Positions 12,621-29,215 of a stretch of 64,000 nt of DNA are shown here, one piece after another (the stretch's first letter is position 1; every line of letters starts with the position of its first letter). The notes under the pieces were generated by a model, which saw only the letters and a program-made list of their open reading frames with translations, was not told where the DNA came from and ran no database searches. Both the position numbers and the translations under genes were made by a program. Source of the DNA: Thermacetogenium phaeum DSM 12270 (GTDB lineage Bacteria > Bacillota > DSM-12270 > Thermacetogeniales > Thermacetogeniaceae). The DNA lies in contig NC_018870.1 in the NCBI RefSeq assembly GCF_000305935.1, forward strand, positions 699,942 through 763,941, written 5' to 3'.

Positions 12621-14132
12621 TTGGCGAGGTTGGTGAGACGTGGGATCCATGCGGGTTCACATCGCATGGAAGGTATAGGTTTAAGGATGTTCACTGAAGA
12701 CGAGCTATGGGATATTCACTACGCAACACTTGACCTTCTTTGGAATGTGGGTGTCAAGATCGAGAGCGAACAAGCTCGTCAGATTTATGCCGACAACGGC
12801 TGTCTTGTTGATGAAGAGACTCAAATTGTAAAGATTCCCCCGCATTTAGTCGAAGAAGCATTAGTTACGGCGCCGAAGACCTTTCGGGCCTGCGGTAGAG
12901 ATCCGGAAAATGACTGGATATGTGACGGTAACAGAACAGGATTCGTTAATTTCGGAGAAGCTGTTCAGTTAATAGATCCTGAAACGAGGGAGCTAAGAAA
13001 GCCGACCCAGAAAGACCTTGATGATGTAGTTAGAATTTGTGAGTATCTCGATCAGATTGTGGTTTTTGAGAGGCCGCTGGCACCGTCCGAAGTTGACCAA
13101 GATGTCGGGCAGGTATATGTTGCCGAATCCTTTTACCGCAATTGCACGAAACATGCTTACATTGGAATGAACCGACCGGAAAACATGAGGGCCGCAGCAA
13201 AAATGGGTTATGTGGTGGCTGGCGGTGAGGATAAGTTCCGGCAGCGTCCATTATTTTCTCAGAGCACTGACCCGGTAAGCCCACTGGTTTTTCCGAAGGG
13301 TGCGGTTGATACCTTACTCGAGGCAATAAAGTGTGGAGTTCCCGCCAAGATCAATCCCTTAGGAATGCCGGGTGGTACCACCTGTGTTAATTTGGCGGGA
13401 ACGCTGGTGACCGAGAATGCCGAAAAACTAAGCATGTTTGTTCTCGGTCAGTTGGTTAAGAAAGGATATCCGATGGTTTACGGTTCATCGACGTCGGCTA
13501 TGGATATGAAGACAGGATTAGCAGCTATGGGAGCACCGGAGCTTGCTTTATATGCAGCTGCTACGGCTAAAATGGCACAGTTTTACAACCTACCGAGTTG
13601 GGTTGGCGGCGGATAGACTGATAGCAAGGTTCCGGATGCTCAGGCAGCATTCGAGTTTGCTCTCACTGCCACTTTACCAGCGTTAGCAGGTGCTAACATG
13701 ATTTATGGCATGGGGCTGCTCGAGGGAGGGCTGACCTGGGATTATGCCATGGTAGTGATGGAGAACGAGATGGCGAGAATGATCATGCACTGTGTGCGGG
13801 GGATTCCTGTAAATGACGAGAAGATTGCCTTTGAAGTGCTCTCCGAGGTAGGGCCCGGAGGAGAGTATATCAGTCATCCGCACACATTTAAGCATTTTAA
13901 AGAGCTATCTCACGCAGAATTGCTTGACCGGCGCAGCCGGGAGGCGTGGTCAGCCGATGGAGGTAAGGATTTAGTAGAGAGATCTTATGAAAAAGCTTTA
14001 GAAATTCTAAACTCGTTCAAACCAAAACCGCTTCCTGAAGATGTGCAGAGGGAACTGAAGCGTATATTGGCCGAGGCAGAAGAGGAAACGCGGGAGATTA
14101 AAGAACGCGAGAGAAGAAGCAAGGCGAAGTAG
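12621..14132 (+). CDS. mttB: MttB-family methylamine:corrinoid methyltransferase with in-frame TAG (pyrrolysine) codon
   Basis: Reading through one TAG at 13614-13616 joins two open segments of the same frame into a 503-residue protein, the normal MttB length. TAG is codon 332, next to the known pyrrolysine position (334) of archaeal MttB, in the conserved context GGG-TAG-TDSKVPDAQAA. Family features: N-terminal RRGIHAGSHRMEG, FTEDELWDIHYATLDLLWN, and the TIM-barrel core on both sides of the TAG. MttB moves a methyl group from trimethylamine (non-Pyl relatives use glycine betaine, carnitine or proline betaine) to a corrinoid protein, which is encoded next. Start TTG 12621 follows AGAGGGGG; the TTG at 12630 and GTG at 12633 are alternatives. 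No pyl genes or tRNA-Pyl are in the window, so read-through is inferred. The substrate may be choline-like given the neighbours. Confidence 0.9.
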
Positions 14133-14247: not shown

Positions 14248-14886
14248 ATGGCGATATTTCAGGATGTGGCGAATGCAGTGATAGGAGGTGATATAGAACG
14301 GGTTAAAGGGCTAATCAAAGATTTGCTTGATAGCGGGAAAGATCCGTTAGAGATCATTGACCAGGGGCTAATTGCGGGAATGGATGAAGTAGGAGTTCGC
14401 TTCAAGGCGGGGGAGATGTTTGTTCCCGAGGTATTAATGTGTGCAAAAACAATGGCTGAAGGGATGTCGCTAATCAGACCTCACCTTGAAGGGAAGGATG
14501 TAAAAACCCATGGGACGCTTTTAATCGGAACGGTGAAGAGCGATTTACACGACATCGGTAAGAACTTGGTGGCGATGATGGTAGAAAGTGCTGGTTTTGC
14601 GGTAATTAACCTGGGGACGGACGTATCTCCTGAGGCATTCGTGAAGGCTATTCAGGAACATAAGCCGGATATTTTAGGGATGTCGGCATTGTTGACGACC
14701 ACTCTGCCCTTCATGAAGGAAACGATTGAGGCGATTAAAGAAGCGGGTTTACGGGAGACGGTAAAGATAATCGTGGGAGGGGCTCCGGTAACGGAGGAGT
14801 ATGCCAGGCAGATTGGAGCAGACGGATATGCGCCGGATGCCGGGTCGGCGGCAGAGCTTTGCAAAAAGCTCGTAGGGGCTAACTAA
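14248..14886 (+). CDS. Methyltransferase cognate corrinoid protein (MttC/MtbC-like)
   Basis: A 212-residue two-domain corrinoid protein. Residues about 1-85 form the helical cap domain; the rest is the Rossmann-like cobalamin domain with the base-off His motif SDLHDIGKN (His at about residue 101), then SALLTTT and IVGGAPVT. It accepts a methyl group on Co(I) from the upstream methyltransferase and passes it to a second methyltransferase that would feed tetrahydrofolate or coenzyme M; no such enzyme is in the window. ATG is preceded by AAAGGGAGG. The specific amine cannot be told from this protein alone. Confidence 0.93.
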   Translation: MAIFQDVANAVIGGDIERVKGLIKDLLDSGKDPLEIIDQGLIAGMDEVGVRFKAGEMFVPEVLMCAKTMAEGMSLIRPHLEGKDVKTHGTLLIGTVKSDLHDIGKNLVAMMVESAGFAVINLGTDVSPEAFVKAIQEHKPDILGMSALLTTTLPFMKETIEAIKEAGLRETVKIIVGGAPVTEEYARQIGADGYAPDAGSAAELCKKLVGAN

Positions 14887-14919: not shown

Positions 14920-15966
14920 GTGGAGGTAGCTACTCGAATGGAGAAAAGAGAAGAAATAATTTTTGTCGAATCATCAATAAATTTGTCTCATCTTGGGCAG
15001 GTAATCCAGCTTATTGGGGAGATCCCCTACTTTGCTGAAAGAAAGGTTCGTGTCAAGAGAATCGGGGTATTGCCATATGGGCTTACCAATTTCAATTTCC
15101 GTGTAACTATCAACGGGGAAGAGTATGCGCTTAGATTGGCTGCCCCGGGGAGCTGGGAGTACATAGATCGGGTTGCTGAAAAGCATACTGCTTCATTGAT
15201 GGCTGATATTGGAGTGAGCCCGAAGGTTTTCTATTATGATGACAAAACCGGCAATCAGGTTTGTGAATATATCGACGGCAAGACTCTTCATATTCCTGAT
15301 TTCCAAGATCTCGAGATCGTTAAAATGGCGGCACGACTGTTCCGTAAGTATCATACCTGCGGAAAAGAATTAATCGCGGAATTCAATCCCTTTAAAGTAA
15401 AGAAAGAGTACCTCGAAATCATTGAGGCAAAGAATGTGCCGATATATGAGGAGCACGATCGTATATGGAATAAAGTTGATGAAATTGAAGAAATCTTTAA
15501 AATTAATCCCCCCAAGTGCACTCCATGCCATAATGACCCCCTTGCTGAGAACTGGATGTTAGATGAGAGAGGTTTGTGGTTGATTGACTGGGAATATGCA
15601 GGAATGAATGACCCGATGTTTGACTTGGGGGACTTTATTTCAGAGGTGGAGCTAACTCCTGAGGCTGAAAAGGCTTTTCTTGAAGAATACTTCGAAGGTA
15701 ACCTTACGTGGGAAGATTATGGGAGGGTAGTCATCGAAAAGCTCATGTGTAATGCTCTTTGGGAGCTATGGTCGCTCGTTCAAATAGCTAATGATAAGCC
15801 ATTTGATGAGTATTGGGAATTTGGTTTATCAAAGGTTAAGAAAGCCATCAAATTAATAGAAGCCCCTAATTTTGAGAAGTGTCTCCAAGCAGTTCGAGAG
15901 CGGTGGGCAGAACCCATTTTGCTGGAAGATAATGTTTTGTCGAGCTTAAGTGTTCTTTCTGCATAA
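14920..15966 (+). CDS. Choline/ethanolamine kinase family protein (LicA-like)
   Basis: A 348-residue phosphotransferase of the choline-kinase/aminoglycoside-kinase fold. Seen: a glycine-poor nucleotide loop GLTNFNFRV typical of LicA-type choline kinases, YALRLAAPG with the ATP-binding strand, the catalytic Brenner motif CHNDPLAENWM (about residues 203-213) and the metal-binding IDWEYAGMNDPMFDLGD. It would phosphorylate choline or ethanolamine with ATP in the cytoplasm. It starts at GTG 14920 or ATG 14938; the GTGGAGG region makes ATG 14938 (MEKREE) possible. Directly followed by a LicB-like permease, recalling the lic1 choline operon, but here beside a methyltransferase and the eut locus rather than licC/licD. 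Confidence 0.85.
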   Translation: MEVATRMEKREEIIFVESSINLSHLGQVIQLIGEIPYFAERKVRVKRIGVLPYGLTNFNFRVTINGEEYALRLAAPGSWEYIDRVAEKHTASLMADIGVSPKVFYYDDKTGNQVCEYIDGKTLHIPDFQDLEIVKMAARLFRKYHTCGKELIAEFNPFKVKKEYLEIIEAKNVPIYEEHDRIWNKVDEIEEIFKINPPKCTPCHNDPLAENWMLDERGLWLIDWEYAGMNDPMFDLGDFISEVELTPEAEKAFLEEYFEGNLTWEDYGRVVIEKLMCNALWELWSLVQIANDKPFDEYWEFGLSKVKKAIKLIEAPNFEKCLQAVRERWAEPILLEDNVLSSLSVLSA

Positions 15967-15992: not shown

Positions 15993-17015
15993 ATGGGTAC
16001 GATAATGGAGAGCAGTGCGGAGCGAGCAGCTAGGGCGAAAAGAATGCTGGAAGATCGACAAATCTCACACTCTAAAACTGGGATTTTGTGGGGAATCCTA
16101 TCCGGCGCCACTTGGGGATTAGATGGAGTTATTTTAGGGATTGCCTTATCTTTAGCTCCCTTTACTAACGGTGTCAGTCTTTTTGCAGCACCGCTCGCGG
16201 GTGCCGCACTACATGATGGTTTTGCGGGGCTCTGGCTGCTGATATACAACATCTTCACCGGCAAGTGGCGGGAGTATCTGCGAACATTAGCTACTAAACC
16301 GGGCTTGATGGTATGCCTAGCTGCTCTTTTCGGTGGACCTCTTGCCATGTCTGGTTATCTATTAGGGATCAGTATGGCGGGACCAACATATGCCCTTCCG
16401 ATTACAGCAATGTATCCTGTTGTGGGAGCATTTTTAGCCATGATCTTTCTTAAAGAGAAGGTCACTTTAAGGGTTTGGATTGGATTGTTTTTGTGTATTG
16501 CCGGCGCAGTTATCGTTGGTTACACTCCACCGGAAGGCAGTTCCCCGAATTTTCATTAAGGGATTTTTCTGTCATTATTGGCATGCCTGGGCTGGGCGGC
16601 TGAAGGCGTTATTTCTACTTTCGGCATGGACATGGTTGATCCGGACATTGCCATTGGAATCAGAGAGGCGGCATCCTGTGTGGTGTACTTGGTTGCTGTT
16701 TTACCTTTTGTCGGTGGCTTAGTTATCTTTGGGGATGCTTTTGGAGCACCACAAGCTCTAATGTATTTAATTATCGCTGCTTTTTCAGGGGCTCTTTCTT
16801 ACCTGGCATGGTATCGTGCCCTAAATATGGCCGGCGTAGGACGAGGTATGGCTCTCAATATAACCTACTGCTTGTGGGCAATAGTATTCGGCTGGCTTAT
16901 TACCAAGACTCCGGTTACTTTACCGCTTGCAATCGGGGCTTGCTTGATTTTCATAGGAACGCTTGTGTCGGTTACTAACGTCAAAGAACTTTTGGATTTA
17001 CGAAAGGTTTCGTAA
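15993..17015 (+). pseudogene. LicB-like DMT/EamA transporter split by an in-frame TAA
   Basis: Two open segments (15993-16559 and 16560-17015) share one frame and together encode a single EamA-type transporter of about 10 membrane helices (about 340 residues). They are separated by one TAA at 16557-16559, after SSPNFH and before GIFLSLLACLGWAAEG, where homologues read through with an ordinary residue. Each half is one EamA repeat. The lic1 permease LicB imports choline, and the choline-kinase-like gene just upstream supports that substrate. The second half could restart at TTG 16578 behind AAGGGA (14 nt), giving two half-proteins; otherwise this is a nonsense mutant or a sequencing error. The codon is TAA, not TAG, so pyrrolysine read-through is not an explanation. 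Confidence 0.75.
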
Positions 17016-17034
17016 TCTCAGCAAAGAGGGGGTA

Positions 17035-17319
17035 ATGGCGGTGAAATTGCCACTGAGATTTCGTATAATTCATTATCTATCGAAAAGTGACGGTGGTGTT
17101 ACCTGCGATCAGTTAGTAGATTCATTAAAGAGTGAATATGGAGATGAAGGACAATTCAAACCATCCACGATAGAAAATCATCTTATGTCACTTCGTGCCG
17201 TAGGGATTGTAGAGGTAGATAAGGTAGACTTAGATGATAATGACAATTTGATATTGTGGTATAAGATTTCTGACTATGGAAAATCTAAATTGTCTTATTT
17301 GCCTCAGGGGTGGAAGTAA
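17035..17319 (+). CDS. Small winged-helix regulator
   Basis: A 94-residue protein; ATG 17035 is chosen because AAAGAGGGGG lies just before it. Seen: a winged-helix pattern (LRFRIIHYLSKSDGGVTCDQ, then KPSTIENHLMSLRAVGIVEV as recognition helix, and a beta wing ending LILWYKISDYGKSKL). It resembles ArsR/MarR-like or archaeal-type small repressors but I cannot place it in a named family. A likely local regulator of the amine/choline genes upstream or of the eut operon downstream. A hairpin follows at 17331. Confidence 0.7.
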   Translation: MAVKLPLRFRIIHYLSKSDGGVTCDQLVDSLKSEYGDEGQFKPSTIENHLMSLRAVGIVEVDKVDLDDNDNLILWYKISDYGKSKLSYLPQGWK

Positions 17320-17443: not shown

Positions 17444-17821
17444 TATGGGAAATGGCGAAAAATCGGGAATGGCTGAGCTTTCCGAGGCAGGAGTTATCAA
17501 AATGAGTGAAGGGACAAAAGAACGGATTATTCAGGAGTATGTGCCCGGAAAGCAGGTAACTTTAGCTCATGTTATTGCTGCACCGGTTCCGGAGATGTGC
17601 GAAAAACTCGGTATTAGCAGCAGGGGCGCGATTGGAATTATGACCATTACCCCGGGAGAGGGAGCTATTATTGCAGCTGACATTACGGTGAAAGCCGCAA
17701 ACGTCGAACTGGTCTATGTCGACAGGTTTAGTGGGTCACTGCGGCTTGACCCCCTAAAATTGGACAATTAGTCTTTATTGCTAACTATTTCATAAAGTAT
17801 CATTGAATTGTTTAGTCGGAA

Positions 17822-18010: not shown

Positions 18011-18931
18011 TTAAACTTTTACTGGTTTTAACTCTACCTGGTTGTTTTTCAGCAGTTGATAGCATTCCAGCGGTGGTAAGTATTTAGTTGCTGAATGAAT
18101 CCGGGTTTCGTTGTAAAAGCGGATAAAGTCGACAACCGTTGCATACGCTTCGGCATAGCTGGCAAACTCATGACGCGATAGGCATTCCTCCTCCAAGATA
18201 GCGTTAAATGACTCGATATGAGCGTTTAAATTGGGTGTTTTAAAGGGAATCCTTTCGTGCTCGATGCCAAGTTCCAGGCACGTTTCCTCGAAAAGGTTGC
18301 TGATAAACTGCGGCCCGTTATCGGATCTGAAGATTGGTTTTTGTTCAGCTGTGTATAATTGCCGTTTAAAAAGAGCGTTTTTAAAGGTGATTACAGCATC
18401 CTTCGCTTCACAGGACAAACCGATATGGTAAGCTACAATGCAACGGTCAAAAACGTCAATAATCGGCATGATGAAAAAGAATCTGTCTTCCCCGGCAATG
18501 TAGCCGTATTTAAGATCGGCTTCCCAGAGCTGGTTGGAAGCCGTAATGACCCGGTTCCTGGCCAGCCGGCGGGGGTGTTTGCGCTTTATTTTCCGCTGCG
18601 GCCTTAAGATATCCAGTTCCTTGCAAAGCCGGTACACCTTTTTCTTGTTAATGATCAGGTGAAACTTCCGGCGCAGGCAGTGGGTTAATTTTAAGTATCC
18701 ATAGACAAACCCTTCGGCGGTAATTAATTCGCACAACCATTCTTTGACCTGTTCGTTGCTCACAACCTTGTTATCGCTGGTAAAGGTATAATGGGATTTA
18801 GGCCGGCCGCCGGCAAAGATCCTGGGTTTGGGTTGGCGCTTTAAATTAGCGTAATACGTGGAACGGCTGATCCCGATAATCCGCAAAACCAGGGAGACTT
18901 TATATCCCAAAGAGATCCATTTTTGCGCCAC
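18011..18931 (-). CDS. IS3-family transposase OrfB (DDE integrase domain)
   Basis: A 306-residue rve-type integrase core. Seen: N-terminal HTH_21-like region (RIIGISRSTYYANLKRQ), then catalytic Asp in LWEADLKYGYI, Asp in FRSDNGPQFISNL and Glu in NAHIESFNAILEEE. GTG 18931 may serve as an independent start, but the frame is open back into orfA, and the functional transposase is probably the OrfAB fusion made by a -1 frameshift at the A8 run of orfA. No stops or deletions are seen, so the element may still be active. Confidence 0.92.
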   Translation of the reverse strand: MAQKWISLGYKVSLVLRIIGISRSTYYANLKRQPKPRIFAGGRPKSHYTFTSDNKVVSNEQVKEWLCELITAEGFVYGYLKLTHCLRRKFHLIINKKKVYRLCKELDILRPQRKIKRKHPRRLARNRVITASNQLWEADLKYGYIAGEDRFFFIMPIIDVFDRCIVAYHIGLSCEAKDAVITFKNALFKRQLYTAEQKPIFRSDNGPQFISNLFEETCLELGIEHERIPFKTPNLNAHIESFNAILEEECLSRHEFASYAEAYATVVDFIRFYNETRIHSATKYLPPLECYQLLKNNQVELKPVKV

Positions 18932-18933
18932 GG

Positions 18934-19257
18934 CTATTTTATCGGCAAGGGTAGGTTCGTTTTTTTTAACAAATCACGAAGAATGGCGATTTCCAGGTCT
19001 TTTTCGCCCAGCAGTTTCTTTAGTTGTTCATTCTCCTTTGTTATCTTCTTGTAATCAGGAGAAATACAGGAGCCGTTTGTTCCTGGTACCTCCTTTTGCG
19101 GGTAAAATGTGCCGTATCTTTTATAGCACCTTGCCCAGCGGGCGACTAGACTGGGTGCAATATCATGTCTTCTGGCCACGATCGAGGCATTGCCCGTTTC
19201 CAGGGTTTCTTTCACGATCTGCATTTTCATCTCTGGTGAATATTGTTTTCTGTTCAA
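18934..19257 (-). CDS. IS3-family transposase OrfA (HTH and leucine zipper)
   Basis: A 107-residue DNA-binding subunit: helix-turn-helix near the start (SPEMKMQIVKETLETGN, ARRHDIAPSLVARW) and a coiled-coil tail (ENEQLKKLLGEKDLEIAI). Near its 3' end the minus strand has eight A residues (plus-strand T run at 18960-18967); a -1 slip there continues KKNEPTLADKIAVAQKW straight into OrfB, giving the fused transposase usual for this family. Confidence 0.92.
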   Translation of the reverse strand: MNRKQYSPEMKMQIVKETLETGNASIVARRHDIAPSLVARWARCYKRYGTFYPQKEVPGTNGSCISPDYKKITKENEQLKKLLGEKDLEIAILRDLLKKTNLPLPIK

Positions 19258-19450: not shown

Positions 19451-19957
19451 TTGGAGAAGCACAAGAAGCAGAGAAGAATTCTCGTGGTGGGCGAGGTCGG
19501 AGCAGGAAAAACAACCCTTATCCAGACGGTTTTGAAAGGGGTTGAGTCGGTTCCCAAGACTCAGGCACCGGTATATTGGGATTGTTTTGTGGATACACCT
19601 GGCGAGTATTTTCAGAATCCTCATTATCGGCGGAATTTGCTGTCATTAGCACAGGGTTGTAGTAAGGTCCTTTTTATTCAGGACTGCACAAAACGGATGA
19701 GCGCTTTTCCACCTGACTTTGCGCATGGGTTCTTGGTACCGGTAATAGGAATTGTTACTAAGGCTGATTTGGGTTGCCGGGATGATTACCGAAGAGCGGA
19801 GAGATGGCTTCGGCAGGCAGGAGCTCGGAATATTTATGTGGTCAGTGCTGTGACGGGGTTCGGTTTAAAAAGACTCAAAGATGAATTGTTCGTCAGACAA
19901 GAGAATCGCAACAGGACGGTGACAGAGCAATTCGATTGTCATGTTAGTAAAAGCTGA
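19451..19957 (+). CDS. eutP: EutP/PduV family GTPase-like protein
   Basis: A 168-residue P-loop protein of the EutP/PduV family: Walker A GEVGAGKTTL, switch region with DTPGEYFQNPHYRRNL, TKADL for guanine specificity and a C-terminal VSAVTGFGLKRL. EutP has been reported with acetate-kinase or GTPase activity and PduV associates with microcompartments; its exact role is unsettled. TTG 19451 follows AGGGGG. It lies downstream of the disrupted eutS, so the insertion could be polar on it, and overlaps eutW by 17 nt. Confidence 0.88.
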   Translation: MEKHKKQRRILVVGEVGAGKTTLIQTVLKGVESVPKTQAPVYWDCFVDTPGEYFQNPHYRRNLLSLAQGCSKVLFIQDCTKRMSAFPPDFAHGFLVPVIGIVTKADLGCRDDYRRAERWLRQAGARNIYVVSAVTGFGLKRLKDELFVRQENRNRTVTEQFDCHVSKS

Positions 19958-21410
19958 TCCCGACGGTTACTATCAAATTCAATTGGAAGAAGATGACTGG
20001 GAAATATTAGAGGGGATCGCTGCCAACCTCCAGCTTATTGCAGATGTTTCTCAGTGTGATGTGTTTATCGATTGTCCGACGAACGATCGAGATGTTGCAA
20101 TTGTTGTGGCTGAAGCCAAACCGCGTACAGGCAAGAGCTTGTACAAGGGGAAAGTTTCCGGACAGAGGGCGATAAGATTTAACGAACCAGGGGTGTTTGA
20201 GGCATTAGAAAAGGGTGAGCCTACTGTTGGTACCAGAGCGGTTTCCCAGGAGGGAGTTTTTATCAGCCAAAACGCTGTACCGATCTTTAATGCGAAGAGA
20301 AAGGTGATCGGAGTATTAATCAGAGAACGAGATATCAGCGAAGCAATGAAAAAGGAAAAGCAAGTGCAGCTCCTGGAAGAAACCACTGAATTGTTGACTG
20401 AAAATTTGCTTCGTGTGGCGATAGAAAGCGGCACTTTACCGGGTGCGCTGCATGACGGGCTGCTGGTCGTCAATAAGGATGGGATTATAGTTTATGTTAA
20501 TCCATCTGCCTTACGTCTGGCTGATGTGATCATTTCCTCTGAAAAGACTTTGCAGTCTGAGGGCAATTACATTGCCGAAACGGAACTCTGTGACATAGTT
20601 TTAGAGAAAGAACAGGATGGAAGGATGCGCGTCAGCCAAGAATACCGCTGTTGCGAATACTCGGTTGGTGATCGTATCGTCAACGTTTCATGGGTGCCTC
20701 TCTTTCGCAAGGAGTTTGTTGGAGGTATTGTTTTAATAAGAGATATTACCGATGTGCGTAAAAAAGAAAAGGAGCTTATGGTCAAAAGCGCCGTAATTAG
20801 AGAAATACATCACCGGGTTAAAAATAACCTCCAAAACATTGCCAGTATCCTGCGGTTGCAGATGCGCCGAGAGCATAACAAAACCGTTAGGGAAGCACTA
20901 GGGGTTTGCATCAACCGCATTCTTTCAATTGCTTCGGTACATGAGCTTCTTTCACAGAGTGGTCTTGAGACGATAGACTTGCATCAAATACTCCGGATGA
21001 CTGTAGAGAGAATTGTTCAAGTTGAGAATGAGTTGTGCGATTGTGAGGTTGAAATCTGCCTGTACGGGGATACCATTAACATTCCGGCTTTTCACGCTTC
21101 GACTATAGCTCTGGTGATCTGTGAACTGGTACAGAACGCGATGAGGCACGGTTTCAGGGGAAGCATAAACAGCAAGGGTAAGATCGTTATCTACACTAAA
21201 CAAATGGGCAGTTTCTATGAACTTCAGGTTGTCGATAATGGTGTGGGACTGCCGGCAAATTTTAAAGAAAATAAAGATTCACGGCTTGGAATCCAACTGG
21301 TGGATGTGTTAGTTAGGGAAACCTTAAAAGGAACTTTTCAGATAGGTAATAATCCTGAGGGAGGTGTGCGGTGCAGTATTACCTTCGATGTTGACAGGGC
21401 CGGTGTGTGA
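19941..21410 (+). CDS. eutW: EutW-type sensor histidine kinase
   Basis: A 489-residue cytoplasmic sensor kinase. The N-terminal 150 residues are the EutW input domain (GAF/PAS-like, TVGTRAVSQEGVFISQNAVP); a PAS domain follows (GALHDGLLVVNKDGIIVYVN); then a HisKA_2 dimerisation domain with phospho-acceptor His in REIHHRVKNNLQNIASILR and an HATPase domain (ICELVQNAMRHGF, VVDNGVGLP). No membrane segments. In enterococci and clostridia EutW autophosphorylates on ethanolamine and activates EutV. The ATG lacks a strong ribosome site, consistent with coupling to eutP. Confidence 0.92.
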   Translation: MLVKADPDGYYQIQLEEDDWEILEGIAANLQLIADVSQCDVFIDCPTNDRDVAIVVAEAKPRTGKSLYKGKVSGQRAIRFNEPGVFEALEKGEPTVGTRAVSQEGVFISQNAVPIFNAKRKVIGVLIRERDISEAMKKEKQVQLLEETTELLTENLLRVAIESGTLPGALHDGLLVVNKDGIIVYVNPSALRLADVIISSEKTLQSEGNYIAETELCDIVLEKEQDGRMRVSQEYRCCEYSVGDRIVNVSWVPLFRKEFVGGIVLIRDITDVRKKEKELMVKSAVIREIHHRVKNNLQNIASILRLQMRREHNKTVREALGVCINRILSIASVHELLSQSGLETIDLHQILRMTVERIVQVENELCDCEVEICLYGDTINIPAFHASTIALVICELVQNAMRHGFRGSINSKGKIVIYTKQMGSFYELQVVDNGVGLPANFKENKDSRLGIQLVDVLVRETLKGTFQIGNNPEGGVRCSITFDVDRAGV

Positions 21411-21461
21411 GTTTACATTAAAAGAACACTTAAGTGCGGGAGGGAGGCAATGAAAGGATAA

Positions 21462-22058
21462 GTGGAAAAAAGCGCTCGAAAATCGCGATTAAAAGTGTTG
21501 ATTGCTGATGACGAACCCATAACCCGCATGGACATTAAGGAAATACTTCAAGAAAACGGTTACAATGTCGTAATCGAAGCAGGAGATGGCCTGGCGGCAG
21601 TGAAGCTTGCCGAAATCTATTGCCCGGATATCGTTTTGATGGACATCAGGATGCCTCATTTAAATGGTATTGAGGCAGCTGCAGAAATATCTCAAAAGAT
21701 TGAGGGTGCTATCATTTTCCTAACGGCCTACAGCGACATCACGCTAATTGAAGAGGCGAAACAGATTCCAAAAGTCGTCGGGTATATAGTTAAACCGGTA
21801 AGTGAAGAGGAAATATTACCGGCTGTAGAGATAGGATTTTCATGCTTTTTAAGAATGCAGACTTTAGAAAAAGAAAAAGAGAAATTCAAGGGCGATCTCG
21901 AAGCACGCAAGATAATCGAAAGGGCAAAAGGTATTTTAATGCAGAAGTATGGTTGGAGTGAAGAGTTTGCTTACAAAAAATTACGGCGTTTGAGTATGGA
22001 CCAGAGAAAGCCGATGAAAGAAATTGCTGAAGCGATAATATTCACTGATTTTCTTTGA
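21462..22058 (+). CDS. eutV: EutV response regulator with RNA-binding ANTAR domain
   Basis: A 198-residue antiterminator: receiver domain (acidic pocket DDEP, phospho-Asp in DIVLMDIRMPH, Thr in IIFLTAYSD, Lys in YIVKPVSEE) joined by a coiled coil to a C-terminal ANTAR domain (KIIERAKGILMQKYGWSEE, AYKKLRRLSMDQRKPM). Phosphorylated EutV dimers bind tandem RNA hairpins with A1/G4 hexaloops and prevent terminator formation in eut leaders. Two such leaders are visible, directly after this gene and before eutH. Start GTG 21462 behind AAAGGA. Confidence 0.95.
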   Translation: MEKSARKSRLKVLIADDEPITRMDIKEILQENGYNVVIEAGDGLAAVKLAEIYCPDIVLMDIRMPHLNGIEAAAEISQKIEGAIIFLTAYSDITLIEEAKQIPKVVGYIVKPVSEEEILPAVEIGFSCFLRMQTLEKEKEKFKGDLEARKIIERAKGILMQKYGWSEEFAYKKLRRLSMDQRKPMKEIAEAIIFTDFL

Positions 22059-22089
22059 TAATTGTGATAAGTGATCTCAAACATATCTC

Positions 22090-22144
22090 GGAGAGTCAAC
22101 GGCGTCTCTCCATAGCTCGTGGCTGAGCTAAGGAGAGATTTTTT
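22090..22144 (+). promoter_or_regulatory. ANTAR-type antitermination leader before eutA
   Basis: First hairpin: GGAGAGTC (22090-22097), hexaloop AACGGC (22098-22103; A at 1, G at 4, the ANTAR rule) and GTCTCTCC (22104-22111), one T-T mismatch. The same CTCTCC forms the 5' arm of a terminator: CTCTCC-A-TAGCTC, loop GTGGCT, GAGCTA-A-GGAGAG, then six T residues (22106-22144). The two folds exclude each other. The second loop has G rather than A at position 1, a deviation from the consensus. Confidence 0.75.
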
Positions 22145-22174
22145 ATTTCTAATAGATGGGGTGGGCTTGGGCAA

Positions 22175-23614
22175 ATGGTAACATCGGGAGAAGGTTATGC
22201 ACTTCTTAGTGTAGGCATCGACATCGGAACTACAACGACCCACCTTGCTTTTAGTAGACTCTATGTCGTCAATCTGGCAGGAGGCAGCTCCGTAGCTAAC
22301 TTTGAGATTATTTCCAGAGAAATTATCTATGAGTCGCGGATTTATTTTACCCCTTTAATTGATGAGAACAAAATCGATCTCAGTAGGCTAAAGGAGATTA
22401 TTGCCACTGAGTATGCAACAGCGGGGATTGAACCTGGTGAAGTGAAGTCAGGGGCGGTCATTATAACGGGTGAAGCTGCTCTGAAAGAGAATGCCGATGA
22501 AGTTGCGAAAATTCTCGAGGGTTTAGCAGGAGACTTTGTGGTTGCGTTGGCAGGACCGGATCTCGAAGCGATTCTTGCAGGCCAAGGTTCGGGAGCGCAA
22601 CGTATCTCCCGGCGAGAAGGGATTACTGTGGCTAATCTTGATATAGGCGGCGGTACTACCAACATTGCTGTTTTTCGTTGTGGGGATCTTTGTGACACAG
22701 CTACCGTTCAAGTCGGTGGAAGACTGTTTACTTTTAATCCTTATTCTCTTGTGGTGAATTCGGTAACTAAGGTGGGACGTCAGTACGCTGACTACCTCGG
22801 TGTTTCGATAGAGAAGGGGCGACCGCTTAATCCGGATGATGTGGAAGTTTTTTGCCAGGGCTTGGTAGATATTCTTGATGAAGTGATAGAGCGGAGAAAT
22901 ATCAGTGCCCTTTCGAAAATCGGTTTGTTGAGAGGTCCTTTGAGAAGGGATTATCAAATTGATGCTCTGATTTTCTCCGGAGGAGTAGGGCACTTCGTAT
23001 ATGAAAACGAAATCAAGGATTTTTTTGACTACGGAGATTACGGTCCTTATTTTGCACAAATGATTAAAGAAAAATCCGTTATGCTCAAAAGGTATCACAT
23101 CATTCAACCTGATCATACTTTACGGGCAACCGTGATCGGGGCTGGAGTCTATAGCATGAAGTTGAGTGGGAGCACGATATTTCTTAAGAAAAAAGATTTT
23201 CTTCCTCTTCGTAACATTCCTGTTTCTCTTGTTCATCTGAAAGAACAAGAAAATTTGGAAAACATTAAGAGGAAGTTAGAAACCGCAATAGCCCCATTTC
23301 AAGAAAAGTACCCTGTTGTTGCAATTGCCATTACCGGCTGGAGGCACCCGAAACTTAACCGGATTGAGCAGTTGGCGCATGCAATAGCAACCGTTAAAGA
23401 GGACGGAATAGGATCACCGCTGGTCGTGATCACAGAGGGAAACTATGGGAAGGTGCTTGGGTACCTTCTCGAAAATCGACTTGAAGATGGGGAAGACCTG
23501 ATTTGCCTCGATGAGATAAAGCTTGGTGGAGGTGATTTTATCGATATCGGCAAGCCTTTAAATATAGGGGCTGTTGTTCCGGTGATCGTTAAAACACTGG
23601 TGTTTTCCAACTGA
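22175..23614 (+). CDS. eutA: Ethanolamine ammonia-lyase reactivating factor EutA
   Basis: A 479-residue Hsp70/actin-fold ATPase. Seen: phosphate-1 loop VGIDIGTTTTHLAFSR, IITGEAALKENADEV, phosphate-2 loop LDIGGGTTNIAVFR and a C-terminal adenosine-motif region (IFSGGVGHFVYE). EutA ejects damaged cobalamin from EutBC so that fresh adenosylcobalamin can bind. Its transcription is likely controlled by the ANTAR leader ending 30 bp upstream. eutB follows after 18 bp. Confidence 0.94.
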   Translation: MVTSGEGYALLSVGIDIGTTTTHLAFSRLYVVNLAGGSSVANFEIISREIIYESRIYFTPLIDENKIDLSRLKEIIATEYATAGIEPGEVKSGAVIITGEAALKENADEVAKILEGLAGDFVVALAGPDLEAILAGQGSGAQRISRREGITVANLDIGGGTTNIAVFRCGDLCDTATVQVGGRLFTFNPYSLVVNSVTKVGRQYADYLGVSIEKGRPLNPDDVEVFCQGLVDILDEVIERRNISALSKIGLLRGPLRRDYQIDALIFSGGVGHFVYENEIKDFFDYGDYGPYFAQMIKEKSVMLKRYHIIQPDHTLRATVIGAGVYSMKLSGSTIFLKKKDFLPLRNIPVSLVHLKEQENLENIKRKLETAIAPFQEKYPVVAIAITGWRHPKLNRIEQLAHAIATVKEDGIGSPLVVITEGNYGKVLGYLLENRLEDGEDLICLDEIKLGGGDFIDIGKPLNIGAVVPVIVKTLVFSN

Positions 23615-23632
23615 AAAAGGGGGTTGTCTTTT

Positions 23633-25024
23633 GTGGCGAAACGATACTCTGCTAGGGTTAGGGGTGAAACTTTTGGATTCTCTTCTCTTAAAGAAGTTTT
23701 TGCGAAATCCAATGAAGAAAAGTCGGGAGACCTGCTTGCCGGTGTTGCTGCTTCTTCTGCTGCGGAAAGGATCGCTGCCAAGAGAGTCCTTTCCGAGACT
23801 ACCTTGGAGGAAATTTATAACAATCCTTTAATTTCACCGGATGAGGATGAAGTCAGTAGGGTGATTTTGGAAAGTGTCCGAATGCCGATTTACAATCAGA
23901 TTAAAAACTGGACGGTTGCCGAGCTGCGGGAGTTTCTTCTGGCAGACACTACCACAAATGAGGATATTGCGTACCTTAGACAAGGACTCACCAGTGAGAT
24001 GATTGCAGCAGTATGCAAAATTATGAGCAATCTCGATCTCATTTATGCAGCCTCTAAAATAGTCGTTACTTCACACTGTAACAACACCCTTGGTATCAAA
24101 GGGACTTTAAACGCTAGGCTTCAGCCAAACCATCCTACCGATGATGTTGAGGGTATTCTTTGGTCGATGCGCGAAGGTTTAGCCTACGGAGTGGGAGATG
24201 CTGTAATTGGGATTAATCCTGTAAACGATAGTGTTGCCAGCGTTTCTCGTCTTATGGAAGCGACACATGAAATGATTACTGAATTCGGTATTCCTACCCA
24301 AAATTGCGTTTTGGCTCATATCACTACTCAAATGGAGGCTGTTCGCAATGGAGCACCGGTTAGCGTTTTCTTTCAAAGCATTGCCGGAACTGAAAAAGGA
24401 AATAAGGCTTTTGGCATAAGTGTCTCCCTTCTTGATGAGGCCTATGAAGTGATTAAAAGATATAGTACGGCGGCAGGGCCGAATCTGATGTATTTTGAAA
24501 CAGGACAAGGCTCGGAGCTGTCTAGCGATGCTCATGAAGGTGTCGATCAGCTGACTTTAGAAGCCCGATGCTATGGGTTGGCAAAGCGCTATAATCCTTT
24601 GCTCGTGAATACGGTCGTCGGCTTCATAGGACCTGAGTATCTCTATGATTCGCGGCAGGTAATTAGGGCAGGTCTTGAGGATCACTTTATGGGAAAGCTT
24701 ACGGGGGTTCCAATGGGGTGTGATGCTTGCTACACCAACCACATGAAGGCCGACCAGAAGGACATTGAAAACCTGGCGGTTCTCCTTACTGCAGCTAATT
24801 GCAATTATTTTATGGGGGTTCCTATGGGGGATGATGTGATGCTTAATTATCAGTGTACAAGTTATCACGATATAGCTACCCTGCGTCAGTTGCTAGGCCT
24901 CAGGCCGGCGCCGGAGTTCGAATGTTGGATGGAAAAAATGGGGTTGATAAGAGAAGGAATACTTACCGATCGAGCCGGTGACCCAAGGGTCTTTACAAAA
25001 GGAGGTTTTGCCGGTAATGGATGA
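23633..25024 (+). CDS. eutB: Ethanolamine ammonia-lyase large subunit
   Basis: A 463-residue TIM-barrel subunit holding the active site; with EutC and adenosylcobalamin it converts ethanolamine to acetaldehyde and ammonia by radical chemistry. Seen: RLQPNHPTDDVEGILWSM, DAVIGINPVNDS, ENVxx-type substrate Glu region in YFETGQGSELSS, and GCDACYTNHMKADQ. GTG 23633 is preferred over TTG 23624 because AAGGGGG sits about 9 nt before it. It overlaps eutC by 8 nt. It shows no frameshift or missing motif. Confidence 0.97.
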   Translation: MAKRYSARVRGETFGFSSLKEVFAKSNEEKSGDLLAGVAASSAAERIAAKRVLSETTLEEIYNNPLISPDEDEVSRVILESVRMPIYNQIKNWTVAELREFLLADTTTNEDIAYLRQGLTSEMIAAVCKIMSNLDLIYAASKIVVTSHCNNTLGIKGTLNARLQPNHPTDDVEGILWSMREGLAYGVGDAVIGINPVNDSVASVSRLMEATHEMITEFGIPTQNCVLAHITTQMEAVRNGAPVSVFFQSIAGTEKGNKAFGISVSLLDEAYEVIKRYSTAAGPNLMYFETGQGSELSSDAHEGVDQLTLEARCYGLAKRYNPLLVNTVVGFIGPEYLYDSRQVIRAGLEDHFMGKLTGVPMGCDACYTNHMKADQKDIENLAVLLTAANCNYFMGVPMGDDVMLNYQCTSYHDIATLRQLLGLRPAPEFECWMEKMGLIREGILTDRAGDPRVFTKGGFAGNG

Positions 25025-25874
25025 GAGACAAATTGCAGCTTTGGTTGAGGAGATAATTAGTGAACTTGAAGGAAAAAGTGGAGCAAGACGTGTTAACTCC
25101 CCCCAAGAGAACGTTTCTCAGGGTAAAGAAGCAGCCAGAGGGGGGCGAGGCTTAGTCAAAGGTGTTTATGATTACGGCAACCTGAAAGAAGTAATCAAAA
25201 CTTCGACTTCGGCGCGCCTGGGAGTAGGACGATGCGGCCCTCGGCCCCTGACGGATGTGCTGCTATCCTTCCTGGAGGACCATGCAGCTGCTCAGGATGC
25301 TATTTTCATTAGAGTTGATAGTGAATTCATTAAACGCTTAGGTTTGATACATTTAAAAACACGTGTAACCGATATTAATGAACATTTAACACGGCCCGAC
25401 CTTGGAAGGCGGCTTGATGAAGAATCAGAGAAAATCTTACGAGCTGAAGGTGTAACTGAGCCTCAGGTTCAGTTGATTGTAGCAGACGGGTTGAGTTCGA
25501 CGGCTGTAGAGAAGAATGTTCCGGAACTTCTACCTTTCCTTCAGAAGGGCTTGGAGAAGGAAGGAGTGAAGATAGGGAAACCCGTATTCGTGGAGTTCGG
25601 AAGGGTCGGCGTAATTGACCACATCGGAGAAATCGTCAGGGCAGAATCTGCGATATTGCTGATAGGTGAAAGACCGGGGTTGGCGACTGCGGAGAGTATG
25701 AGCGCCTATCTGGAATATGAGCCCCGGCTCGGGAAAACCGATGCTGACAGAATAGTCATCTCCAATATCCACGAGCGCGGATTGTCTCCGGCTGAGGCTG
25801 GGGCCGAAATTCTTGAACTCATTCAGAAGATCCTGCGTGCCAGGCAGAGTGGCGTAGGCGCAAACCTCAGTTAA
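25017..25874 (+). CDS. eutC: Ethanolamine ammonia-lyase small subunit
   Basis: A 285-residue cobalamin-binding partner of EutB. ATG 25017 is chosen because AAAGGAGG precedes it and the frame upstream lies inside eutB. Seen: an N-terminal amphipathic helix (ERQIAALVEEIISELEGK) of the kind that targets cargo to microcompartments, a linker, then RLGVGRCGPRPLTDVLLSF, LIVADGLSSTAVEKNVPE and LIGERPGLATAESMSAYL, which line the cofactor site. Confidence 0.96.
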   Translation: MDERQIAALVEEIISELEGKSGARRVNSPQENVSQGKEAARGGRGLVKGVYDYGNLKEVIKTSTSARLGVGRCGPRPLTDVLLSFLEDHAAAQDAIFIRVDSEFIKRLGLIHLKTRVTDINEHLTRPDLGRRLDEESEKILRAEGVTEPQVQLIVADGLSSTAVEKNVPELLPFLQKGLEKEGVKIGKPVFVEFGRVGVIDHIGEIVRAESAILLIGERPGLATAESMSAYLEYEPRLGKTDADRIVISNIHERGLSPAEAGAEILELIQKILRARQSGVGANLS

Positions 25875-25902
25875 GTGTACCTGCTTTTAGGGGGTGAGCA
25901 GC

Positions 25903-26559
25903 GTGAATAATTTACAGGCGATTAAACCTAGGGTACTCAGCGTGAAAATTATTCCCAACGTTTATCCAGAACTCGGTAAAGAATTGGGATTCAAGCCTCA
26001 CCACAGAAGCATTGGCATGATTACCTGTGATATTGATGATGCCGGCTACACTGCAATTGATGAGGCAACAAAAAAGGCTGACGTAGAAGTTGTTTATGCA
26101 AAGTCCTTTTATGCCGGGGCAGCTCATGCCTCCGGCCCGTTGTCCGGAGAATTTATCGGAATTCTTGCCGGCCCTAACCCTGCGGAAGTTCAAAGCGGTC
26201 TTAATGCAGCCATTCAGTGTCTGGAAGAGGAGGCCTGGTTTTACGCCGCCGATCCGGATGGGAAAATTGCTTTTTATCCCCATGTGATTTCCCGGACTGG
26301 GAGTTATCTTTCGAAGGTTTGTGGAATTCCGGAGGGCACGCCGATAGCTTACTTGATTGCCCCTCCAATTGAAGCCATGTATGCTCTTGATTTAGCTTTA
26401 AAAGCTGCTGAAGTTAAACTTTGCGTGTTTTATGGACCGCCTACCGAAACCAACTTTGCCGGTGGATTGTTGACGGGAACTCAAAGCGCGTGTCGTGCTG
26501 CAGCCCGCGCTTTTCAGGAAGGTGTTCTCTATGTTGCTCGAAATCCCTTGAAATTCTAG
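25903..26559 (+). CDS. eutL: EutL-type trimeric microcompartment shell protein
   Basis: A 218-residue protein of two circularly permuted BMC domains, forming pseudohexameric trimers with a gated pore. Seen: KIIPNVYPELGKELGF, SIGMITCDIDDAGYTAIDEA, SGPLSGEFIGILAGPNPAEV and TETNFAGGLLTGTQSAC. GTG 25903 is chosen over GTG 25894 because AGGGGG lies at the right distance. Follows eutC by 28 bp and precedes eutE by 12 bp. Confidence 0.95.
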   Translation: MNNLQAIKPRVLSVKIIPNVYPELGKELGFKPHHRSIGMITCDIDDAGYTAIDEATKKADVEVVYAKSFYAGAAHASGPLSGEFIGILAGPNPAEVQSGLNAAIQCLEEEAWFYAADPDGKIAFYPHVISRTGSYLSKVCGIPEGTPIAYLIAPPIEAMYALDLALKAAEVKLCVFYGPPTETNFAGGLLTGTQSACRAAARAFQEGVLYVARNPLKF

Positions 26560-26571
26560 GAGGTAAGGCAG

Positions 26572-28083
26572 GTGGGTATTGATAAGGATTTAATTTCCAG
26601 ACAGCAGGCGCGAGACTTAGCTAAAAAAGCCTCTGCTGCGCAGAAGATTTGGGCTCAAGCATCTCAGGAAGAGGTGGATCGCGTTGTGGAAGCTGCAGTT
26701 AAGGCGGGGGCTGATGCTGCTCAGAAGCTCGCGGAAATGGCTGTAGAAGAGACCTGCATGGGTACAGTTCAGGATAAAGTAGTAAAAAACCTCCTGGCGA
26801 CGAAGATTCTTGGTGATTACATCAGAGATATGAGAACCGTTGGAGTTGTCAATGAGGATCAAGAGAAAAAAATCGTGGAAATTGCAGAACCTGTTGGCAC
26901 GATTGCCGGCATCACTCCAACGACTAACCCAACTTCAACCGTTCTTTACAAAGCGATTATCGCTTTAAAGTCGAGGAACGCGATTGTCTTTTCACCCCAC
27001 CCCAGAGCGGTGCGGTGCAGCTGTGAGGCTGCCAGAACTGTTTACGAGGCAGCTGTAAAAGCAGGAGCGCCTGAAGGGATCATCGGTTGTATGGACACAC
27101 CTACCATGGAGGGAACTCGAGAATTAATGACCTATCCGGATGTCAGCTTCATTCTGGCTACCGGAGGCACGAGTCTGGTACATGCTGCTTACAGTTCTGG
27201 AAAGCCGGCGATTGGGGTGGGCCCCGGGAATGTGCCTGTCTACATTGAACGAACTGCTGATGTGGAAAAAGCCGTGCGCTACATTATTTTGAGTAAAACC
27301 TTTGACAACGGAACGGTTTGTGCTTCTGAGCAGCATGTTGTGACCGAGCGGGTGATCGAGGATGTGGTTGTAGAGGCTTTAAAAGAAAACGGCGCCTATT
27401 TTCTGGACAGTTCAGAAAAGAAAAAGGTTGAGGAGGTGGTTGTCCGCAACGGAGGCGTTAATCCAAAAGTCGTTGGTCAGGCGGCGACGAAGATTGCTGA
27501 AATGGCGGGTATCAAGGTTCCTGTCGGAACAAAAGTTCTTATTGCAAACCTCTCGCAGGTAGGGCCTCATGAGCCTCTTTCCGGCGAGAAGCTTTGTCCG
27601 GTTCTTGGGTTCTACACTGTCGACAACTGGGTGGAGGCATGTGAGTTGTGCATATCTTTGCTTCAGTATATGGGAATAGGCCACACTCTGGCAATTCATT
27701 CACAAAATGAAGCTGTTGTCATGGAGTTTGCTTTAAAGAAGCCGATTTCCCGGATAGTTTGGAATTCTCCGTCAACCCACGGAGCGGTAGGTCTCACCAC
27801 AGGGCTGGCGCCGGCGCTGACGCTAAGCTGCGGAGCAATGGGAGGAAGCAGTACCGCGGATAATGTAACTCCGTACCATCTTCTCAATATTAAAAGACTT
27901 TGCGCCGGGATTAAGGATCCTGAAGAGCTTAATTTCGGGAGCGCAACAGGCACATTGCAGAGGCAAGATTTAGAGGCTATTGTTCGGGAGGTGCTGCGCC
28001 GTAGTCCGGATAAGTGCCTGCAAGAAGTTGAGTCTATCGTTTGGGAGACGTGGAAACGGTTACAGGAAAGTTCTGTTAAATGA
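26572..28083 (+). CDS. eutE: CoA-acylating acetaldehyde dehydrogenase EutE
   Basis: A 503-residue aldehyde dehydrogenase turning acetaldehyde, CoA and NAD+ into acetyl-CoA. Catalytic Cys at about residue 250 in NGTVCASEQ; cofactor-fold motifs GITPTTNPTSTV and GVGPGNVPVYIERTAD; C-terminal GAMGGSSTADNVTPYHL. The N-terminal 35 residues form an Ala-rich helix (LISRQQARDLAKKASAAQ) that may act in encapsulation. No eutG alcohol dehydrogenase or eutD phosphotransacetylase is nearby, so downstream steps are encoded elsewhere. Confidence 0.95.
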   Translation: MGIDKDLISRQQARDLAKKASAAQKIWAQASQEEVDRVVEAAVKAGADAAQKLAEMAVEETCMGTVQDKVVKNLLATKILGDYIRDMRTVGVVNEDQEKKIVEIAEPVGTIAGITPTTNPTSTVLYKAIIALKSRNAIVFSPHPRAVRCSCEAARTVYEAAVKAGAPEGIIGCMDTPTMEGTRELMTYPDVSFILATGGTSLVHAAYSSGKPAIGVGPGNVPVYIERTADVEKAVRYIILSKTFDNGTVCASEQHVVTERVIEDVVVEALKENGAYFLDSSEKKKVEEVVVRNGGVNPKVVGQAATKIAEMAGIKVPVGTKVLIANLSQVGPHEPLSGEKLCPVLGFYTVDNWVEACELCISLLQYMGIGHTLAIHSQNEAVVMEFALKKPISRIVWNSPSTHGAVGLTTGLAPALTLSCGAMGGSSTADNVTPYHLLNIKRLCAGIKDPEELNFGSATGTLQRQDLEAIVREVLRRSPDKCLQEVESIVWETWKRLQESSVK

Positions 28084-28176
28084 TGCGACAAAAAAGTGGA
28101 GTGGCGCTGTTCGGTAGCAAACTCACCGATCTCAAAAATCGATCGTTAAGCAAAATTCAAGGAGGGAGTATGAAAA

Positions 28177-28479
28177 GTGGTTAGTTTAATTGCTTTAGGG
28201 ATGATCGAAACAAGGGGGCTTGTGGCTGCGATTGAGGCTGCGGACGCCATGTGTAAAGCTGCGGACGTCAGACTTATTGGTCGTGACCTTTCTAGCGGTG
28301 GCCTGGTGGCTGTAATGGTGCGTGGAGATGTTGGTGCCGTCAAAGCGGCGGTAGATGCCGGTGCTGCTGCTGCTCAGAAGGTAGGAGAGTTGGTAGCTGT
28401 TCATGTAATCCCTCGTCCCCATAATGAGGTGGAATACATTCTCCCGCGTCCCGGTTCCCAAGACAAGACGAAAAAGTAA
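28177..28479 (+). CDS. eutM: BMC-domain hexameric shell protein EutM/PduA type (copy 1)
   Basis: A 100-residue canonical BMC protein: [34 protein letters not shown], pore loop region [20 protein letters not shown] and C-terminal [14 protein letters not shown]. It tiles the shell facets, with a central pore for small substrates. GTG 28177 follows GGAGGGAG. A close paralogue lies at 33799. Confidence 0.95.
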
Positions 28480-28495
28480 AAGGAGTTGAGCAATA

Positions 28496-29215
28496 TTGGG
28501 TGTGCTTACGGAAATAGAACTTCGGGACCGGGTGAGGCGGGAGGGGCCTTTGGACACTATTAGTGTTGAACCGGAAACCCTAATCACTCCGGCTGCCGCC
28601 CAGTATGCTCGGGAGCAAGGCATTAAGATCGTTTTTACAGACCGAGAAAAAGGAATTTCTAAGGAACAGCTTAAGGGGCAAAAAAAACCAGAGCACTATA
28701 CTCATCTTGATCGAAAAAACCTTGTTCCCAAAACTCATCCCCGGATTAAGTTGAGGGGGATGCTTGACCTCCTTCAGGCGGTTATTATTAAGACTCAGGT
28801 GGCCGCTCAACAAGAAGGGATGCCGCAATTAGTAGGTGACCTAGAGCAGATGCTTGCTTATGCACGCCAGTTATTGCGAGCTGAGGTTACCGGGGATGGG
28901 GTTCCTGAGTTGAGACTGTTTGGGCTCTCTGAGGAGGATATTCGTGAATATTCACATCATCCCTTCAGTAAGATCGGAGTCAACCATCTAACTCCCAGCT
29001 ACCACATGGGACAGGTAATTGCCGAACTCAACTACCTGCGTGCCGTTGTGCGTCAGGTGGAAGTATCCGCTTGTGATGCTTACCTCCACCAAGACGGAAC
29101 GCCAGAGAGAGCAGATATCATCAAGGCTTTAAACCGCTTAAGCAGCGCAGTCTATGTGATGGAATGCAAAGTTGTGGCCGGCCAGTATTATAGCCGTGCC
29201 AAAGGTGAGGATTAG
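28496..29215 (+). CDS. eutT: EutT-type cobalamin adenosyltransferase
   Basis: A 239-residue protein. The N-terminal 50 residues carry the module ITPAAAQYAREQGIKIVF; the rest matches the EutT adenosyltransferase fold (HPRIKLRGMLDLLQAVIIKTQ, then LNYLRAVVRQVEVSACDAY and LSSAVYVMECKVVAGQYY). It makes adenosylcobalamin from ATP for EutBC. The family has a metal-binding Cys-rich site in some members; here a single Cys (SACDAY) is seen there. TTG 28496 follows AAAAGGAG. Confidence 0.87.
   Translation: MGVLTEIELRDRVRREGPLDTISVEPETLITPAAAQYAREQGIKIVFTDREKGISKEQLKGQKKPEHYTHLDRKNLVPKTHPRIKLRGMLDLLQAVIIKTQVAAQQEGMPQLVGDLEQMLAYARQLLRAEVTGDGVPELRLFGLSEEDIREYSHHPFSKIGVNHLTPSYHMGQVIAELNYLRAVVRQVEVSACDAYLHQDGTPERADIIKALNRLSSAVYVMECKVVAGQYYSRAKGED

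Follow-up and report, generated by a model that had tools for sequence, protein, structure and literature searches.

A pyrrolysine codon in an MttB-superfamily methyltransferase gene of Thermacetogenium phaeum and a probable link to choline-derived amines

The gene at positions 12621..14132 of the window, by which we mean the whole 64,000-nucleotide stretch of the Thermacetogenium phaeum genome analyzed here, carries an in-frame TAG, and comparison with its relatives supports the reading of this TAG at 13614 as a pyrrolysine (Pyl) codon. Within the MttB superfamily of corrinoid methyltransferases, we class the product as a Pyl enzyme that is neither a trimethylamine methyltransferase nor an MthB, and which probably demethylates a choline-derived amine rather than trimethylamine. 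The locus has the following features:

12621..14132, plus strand: MttB-superfamily corrinoid methyltransferase gene; TTG start, 503 aa, with Pyl predicted as residue 332
13614..13616, plus strand: in-frame TAG, read as pyrrolysine; kept in orthologs and aligned to Pyl334
13682..13697, plus strand: inverted repeat GTTAGC-AGGT-GCTAAC in the coding sequence, with synonymous covariation in relatives
14248..14886, plus strand: cognate corrinoid (B12-binding) protein, similar to an mthC-like protein
14920..15966, plus strand: choline/ethanolamine kinase family protein, LicA-like (Pfam PF01633)
15993..17015, plus strand: EamA-type transporter, broken by an in-frame TAA at 16557-16559
16963..17319, plus strand: small helix-turn-helix protein, kept after EamA in relatives
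17445..17771, plus strand: EutS-like microcompartment shell protein; it exceeds the cut-off for a BMC domain and falls short of that for the EutS model
18011-19257, minus strand: transposase gene pair with an rve/HTH_21 integrase-type domain (IS3-like), an insertion that separates the EutS-like gene from the remaining eut cluster
19451..28600 (end approximate), plus strand: ethanolamine utilization cluster, in agreement with the eut cluster of PMC6436200; it encodes an EutP-like GTPase, a sensor kinase, an ANTAR regulator, EutA at 22175, EutB at 23624, EutC at ~25185, EutL at ~25915, an EutE-like protein at ~26578 and a BMC protein at ~28183

The first-pass annotation had described a single TAG (13614-13616), flanked by open sequence of the same phase, as codon 332 of a 503-residue gene and as occupying the pyrrolysine position of archaeal MttB. 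This description holds: the frame is open on both sides, the count is right when begun at the TTG at 12621, and the codon aligns to Lys/X334 (Pyl334) of PDB 7xcm/7xcl. Absent from that annotation was the point that the terminator (14130-14132), which is immediately followed by a TGA, is also a TAG. The joined protein aligns over its full length to Methanosarcina barkeri MttB, wherein residue 334 is a crystallographic pyrrolysine, and both its sequence and its TIM-barrel fold place it in the MttB superfamily (PF06253): an AlphaFold model computed from an alignment of 40 homologs has a pLDDT of 91.7 and a TM score of 0.93 against 7xcl. The TTG start and its Shine-Dalgarno sequence are kept in orthologs.

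In a tree of 63 homologs the window gene belongs to a clade of 24 TAG-containing sequences, distributed in Clostridia and Sporomusa, and a long stem (0.44; support 1.0) divides this clade from the remaining Pyl-MttB. Gene neighborhoods were annotated with HMMs at 25 clade loci and 13 other Pyl-mttB loci, many of the Desulfosporosinus clade loci being near-identical and hence not independent counts. A choline-type kinase gene is encoded at 22 of the 25 clade loci: in 19 of them the choline kinase is LicA-like, and another 3 have instead a second kinase, of APH type. Of the three loci that have neither, two are on contigs that are short or truncated; the third is that of Sporomusa malonica (L055), where EutABC and shell genes occur with no kinase within 8 kb, and it counts against a choline-type reading. 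Genes for ethanolamine utilization or microcompartments lie nearby in 13/25 clade loci, and mtbB, a mark of methylamine gene context, in 0/25. At the other Pyl-mttB loci, in contrast, mtbB is found in 9/13, and kinases and eut genes in 0/13 each. The kinase/eut association spans about nine lineages, and is seen both within the pyl operon (Desulfosporosinus) and outside it (T. phaeum, L053, L069, L072 and L090); L090 presents the full set of Pyl-MttB, both kinases, EamA, helix-turn-helix protein, Leu-type MttB, EutB and EutC. A search of the literature, covering few subscription journals, returned no prior link of one Pyl-MttB clade to choline-type kinases and eut genes.

The window locus itself conforms to this pattern, a choline-type kinase being encoded with the methyltransferase: the kinase matches PDB 3dxq (E 1e-48) and the choline kinase 4r77 (E 4e-35). 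The corrinoid protein does not reach the cut-off of TIGR02370, the family of methylamine corrinoid proteins, and shows 72% identity to the mthC-like protein of another T. phaeum cluster (L014, see below) as against 36% to the MttC-type protein of the genome. The EamA gene is cut by a TAA, not a TAG, and is intact in relatives of equal synteny; that the transporter is broken in T. phaeum counts against a choline-type reading.

Nested inside the Pyl clade is an MttB paralog of T. phaeum (L013 8966-10471, C1:461,000) that has His (CAT) at the Pyl codon, in the motif GGG-H-SDSK; L028 and L092 of the related genome G002 are of the same type. G002 has this paralog without PylSn, and T. phaeum has it alongside Pyl enzymes. 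In this paralog His seems to have taken the place of Pyl.

The clade shares its fold, the Pyl position and the equivalents of Gly110 and Tyr364 with MttB of M. barkeri, the Pyl-dependent trimethylamine:corrinoid methyltransferase (7xcl, PMC9842639), from which it differs in its gene partners, in the bacterial split PylS and in the strands predicted to face the substrate. Lys243, Asn245, Asp217 and Ser215 are invariant in the clade, as against mostly Asn, Leu, Cys and varied or hydrophobic residues, respectively, in other Pyl-MttB. Positions 243 and 245 are on the barrel strand leading to the gate. Since both share the strand parity of the residue that aligns to gate Met249, and given the gate and pocket residues published for the M. 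barkeri enzyme (PMC9842639), Lys243 and Asn245 probably face the substrate. The gate residue itself is Met in most of the clade and Leu in the window protein.

A biochemical precedent is furnished by Eubacterium limosum, in which the kinase MthK produces phosphocholine and MthB, an enzyme without Pyl, demethylates it to dimethylaminoethanol phosphate; non-Pyl MttB relatives act on quaternary amines (PMC12155760). The E. limosum MthB-MthC-MthA-MthK system and that of the window have in common an MttB-superfamily enzyme, a corrinoid protein and a choline-type kinase. However, MthB is without Pyl and takes a quaternary amine, whereas the window enzyme has Pyl and its kinase is LicA-like. Thus, the window enzyme is not a non-Pyl MttB homolog of the phosphocholine-demethylating kind, and because of its Pyl not an MthB, and may still serve the same pathway. 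The L014 cluster of T. phaeum (~C1:609,500-614,400) encodes a corrinoid protein, an APH kinase, a Leu-type MttB and a methyl-tetrahydrofolate methyltransferase, a set equal to mthC-mthK-mthB-mthA of E. limosum, to which we liken it by components alone. The dimethylaminoethanol phosphate from such a first step is a tertiary amine and could be captured by the pyrroline imine. That Pyl is suited to lone-pair amines, with the non-Pyl relatives taking quaternary amines, supports a tertiary-amine substrate.

The physiology of these organisms bears on such a role. T. phaeum grows on ethanolamine (PMC6436200) and does not grow on trimethylamine (PMC3551663); the literature search found no report of its growth on choline or dimethylethanolamine, which counts against a choline-type reading. 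Formimonas, with two genes in the window clade, grows on choline and not on trimethylamine (PMC8163858). It converts choline to monomethylamine and about 3 acetate, which its authors explain by a route through glycine betaine, a point against the dimethylethanolamine reading; by arithmetic the acetate yield is equal for the betaine route and for a dimethylethanolamine route that stops at N-methylethanolamine. The proteome of 'Ca. Formimonas warabiya' DCMF contains seven Pyl-MttB proteins, and in the accessible portions of the two reports on this strain (PMC6778437, PMC9768040) the authors make no connection of Pyl-MttB to a choline kinase or eut genes and leave the role of the bacterial Pyl-MttB open (PMC9768040). 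Trimethylamine derived through CutC was considered as a source of substrate and set aside: no CutC scores over the cut-off in T. phaeum, G001, G012 or G076.

On balance, we lean towards the window gene encoding a Pyl-dependent methyltransferase for N,N-dimethylethanolamine or its phosphate, acting after an MthB/MthK-like step and feeding the Eut system. When the pyl genes are expressed, tRNA-Pyl would decode the internal UAG; when they are not, a 331-residue fragment would result. The pyrroline ring of Pyl would form an adduct with the lone pair of the amine, which we suggest is N,N-dimethylethanolamine, perhaps as a phosphate made by the adjacent kinase. The methyl group thus activated would be passed to the corrinoid protein (14248-14886), thence to tetrahydrofolate and into the Wood-Ljungdahl pathway. 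The window enzyme would accordingly catalyze the second demethylation, following the MthB/MthK-like phosphocholine step, and the leftover aminoethanol skeleton might be channeled to EutBC and the microcompartment.

Two other substrate assignments have to be weighed. The first, which we consider unlikely, is that this is an ordinary Pyl-dependent trimethylamine methyltransferase, a second MttB copy, with kinase and eut genes adjacent merely because amine-use genes cluster. The joined protein does score 609 bits on the trimethylamine equivalog NCBIfam TIGR02369 (cut-off 525), a result counting against a choline-type reading, and the retained Pyl, Gly110 and Tyr364 equivalents and the MttB fold agree with that assignment. 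Yet the His-type paralog, without Pyl, reaches 623 bits on the same model, so that passing the cut-off is no proof of substrate, and the family label is probably wrong for this clade. An ordinary trimethylamine enzyme also sits poorly with a separate clade that is never found with mtbB and nearly always with choline-type kinases, with the altered pocket strand, with a corrinoid protein under the methylamine family cut-off, with the canonical Pyl-MttB beside a Pyl-MtbB that the genome already has, and with the lack of reported trimethylamine growth for T. phaeum or Formimonas. The second assignment, to which we accord a still smaller likelihood, retains the pathway and the identical neighborhood evidence and changes the amine to choline or phosphocholine, N-methylethanolamine, or an N-methylated aminophosphate. 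A non-Pyl MtmB homolog takes choline (PMC13044021), and hence the assignment of amine by fold or family is not fixed; however, quaternary amines have no lone pair for attack on the Pyl imine, and phosphocholine is more plausibly handled by the Leu-type MttB, which has a kinase of its own.

The known substrates of Pyl enzymes are, to our knowledge, the three simple methylamines, namely mono-, di- and trimethylamine. We tentatively raise the possibility that the present clade is a Pyl-MttB subfamily for N,N-dimethylethanolamine (or its phosphate), and the first Pyl enzyme beyond these three. If so, it would complete an anaerobic route from choline to ethanolamine-type products in acetogens and sulfate reducers, comprising a non-Pyl phosphocholine demethylase, a Pyl-dependent tertiary-amine demethylase and the Eut microcompartment. 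Choline-derived amines would then be divided on chemical grounds, tertiary ones going to Pyl enzymes and quaternary ones to non-Pyl enzymes, and the retention of Pyl-mttB in bacteria unable to grow on trimethylamine would be accounted for. It would also be a warning that automatic annotation both splits such genes and misnames them.

The Pyl reading of the TAG draws on its conservation, on selection and on the translation machinery of the genome. The TAG is at the identical codon, in the motif GG-TAG-(T/C)DSK, in every ortholog found (67-89% identity; Clostridia, Sporomusa, Desulfosporosinus and Formimonas), and is kept in 24/24 full-length clade members. Among close pairs dN is ~0.03-0.07 before and after the TAG alike, with dS from 0.5 to saturation, and on this comparison the post-TAG sequence is under purifying selection. 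The pyl genes and a CTA-anticodon tRNA-Pyl, which the first-pass annotation expected elsewhere in the genome, are present: PylSn, PylSc, PylB, PylC and PylD all score above curated cut-offs, and the tRNA lies 92 bp after pylB. With these genes present in a complete genome (a single contig of 2,939,057 bases), the objection that it might have no pyl genes falls away. Together, the conserved TAG, purifying selection and full pyl set support the initial view that a coded 22nd amino acid is likelier than a mutation. We see very little room for the TAG being a nonsense mutation in a pseudogene, a sequencing error or a site where an ordinary amino acid is inserted on read-through: although TAG is an ordinary stop for about a quarter of the sampled genes and the nearby EamA gene is truly broken, by a TAA, relatives from independent assemblies carry the TAG at the identical codon, purifying selection persists 3' of it, and the genome has the full pyl set with tRNA-Pyl.

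The machinery is encoded at two loci. PylC, PylSc, PylD and PylSn are encoded together near C1:2,500,000, along with a corrinoid-activating protein and a protein of the DUF1638 family; ARAGORN gave no tRNA-Pyl at this cluster, and a motif search with a fixed anticodon stem gave none either. The second locus, near C1:2,794,000, has pylB followed by the tRNA-Pyl (anticodon CTA, CCA encoded), detected by a structure-based scan, and then a sigma-54 activator gene. Adjoining pylB is a methylamine cluster with one TAG-containing mttB and one TAG-containing mtbB; a search of the T. phaeum genome for mtmB found none. Divergent consensus sigma-54-type promoters, TGGCACGGAAATTGCA and TGGCACTGGATTTGCA (L020 2783 and 2938; C1:2,792,800), separate the pylB-tRNA-Pyl side from this cluster, and because of these promoters and the activator gene Pyl production is probably conditional. 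This would fit TAG serving as an ordinary stop in 44/175 genes sampled over ~200 kb of the genome; in this sample backup stops are not enriched after TAG-ended genes relative to other genes. No sigma-54 promoter was found upstream of the window gene.

Across 81 related genomes PylSn is present in only 12, including 9/9 of those whose TAG-mttB is full-length and exceeds the family cut-off. Pyl is known from Clostridia, including the sister genus Syntrophaceticus (PMC5113046): for S. schinkii, as here for T. phaeum, pylS, pylBCD and tri- and dimethylamine methyltransferases are reported. Unlike S. schinkii, T. phaeum is nowhere in the literature found said to use Pyl, and its genome paper names other methylamine methyltransferase loci.

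The inverted repeat at 13682-13697 begins 66 nt past the TAG, and synonymous constraint in the gene is strongest at codons 353-359 (shuffle P ~0.0005). Paired synonymous changes are seen there (TTA/GCT to TTG/GCC, GCG/AAC to GCA/AAT), with the caveat that the peptide LAGAN by itself favors complementarity, which is broken in two Pyl sequences. The repeat is absent from the minimum-energy single-sequence fold, and falls outside the Rfam PYLIS_3 consensus. PYLIS_3 (RF02510) was rejected as evidence of recoding: the window gene matches it with 82 bits, and as the non-Pyl CAT (His) paralog also matches (59.7 bits, above the gathering score), the match is not specific to recoded genes.

The canonical Pyl-mttB of T. 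phaeum (L011 10823-12400) likewise has an internal TAG as Pyl and a TAG terminator, read-through of which would add ~31 residues. In the same methylamine/pyl neighborhood the transhydrogenase-like alpha-1 and alpha-2 genes share a frame with one TAG between them (L011 16470-16475, C1:2,791,470), where Pyl read-through would fuse both; we judged this TAG between pntAA and pntAB (L011 16473) to be an ordinary stop, after which a GTG/TTG restart follows.
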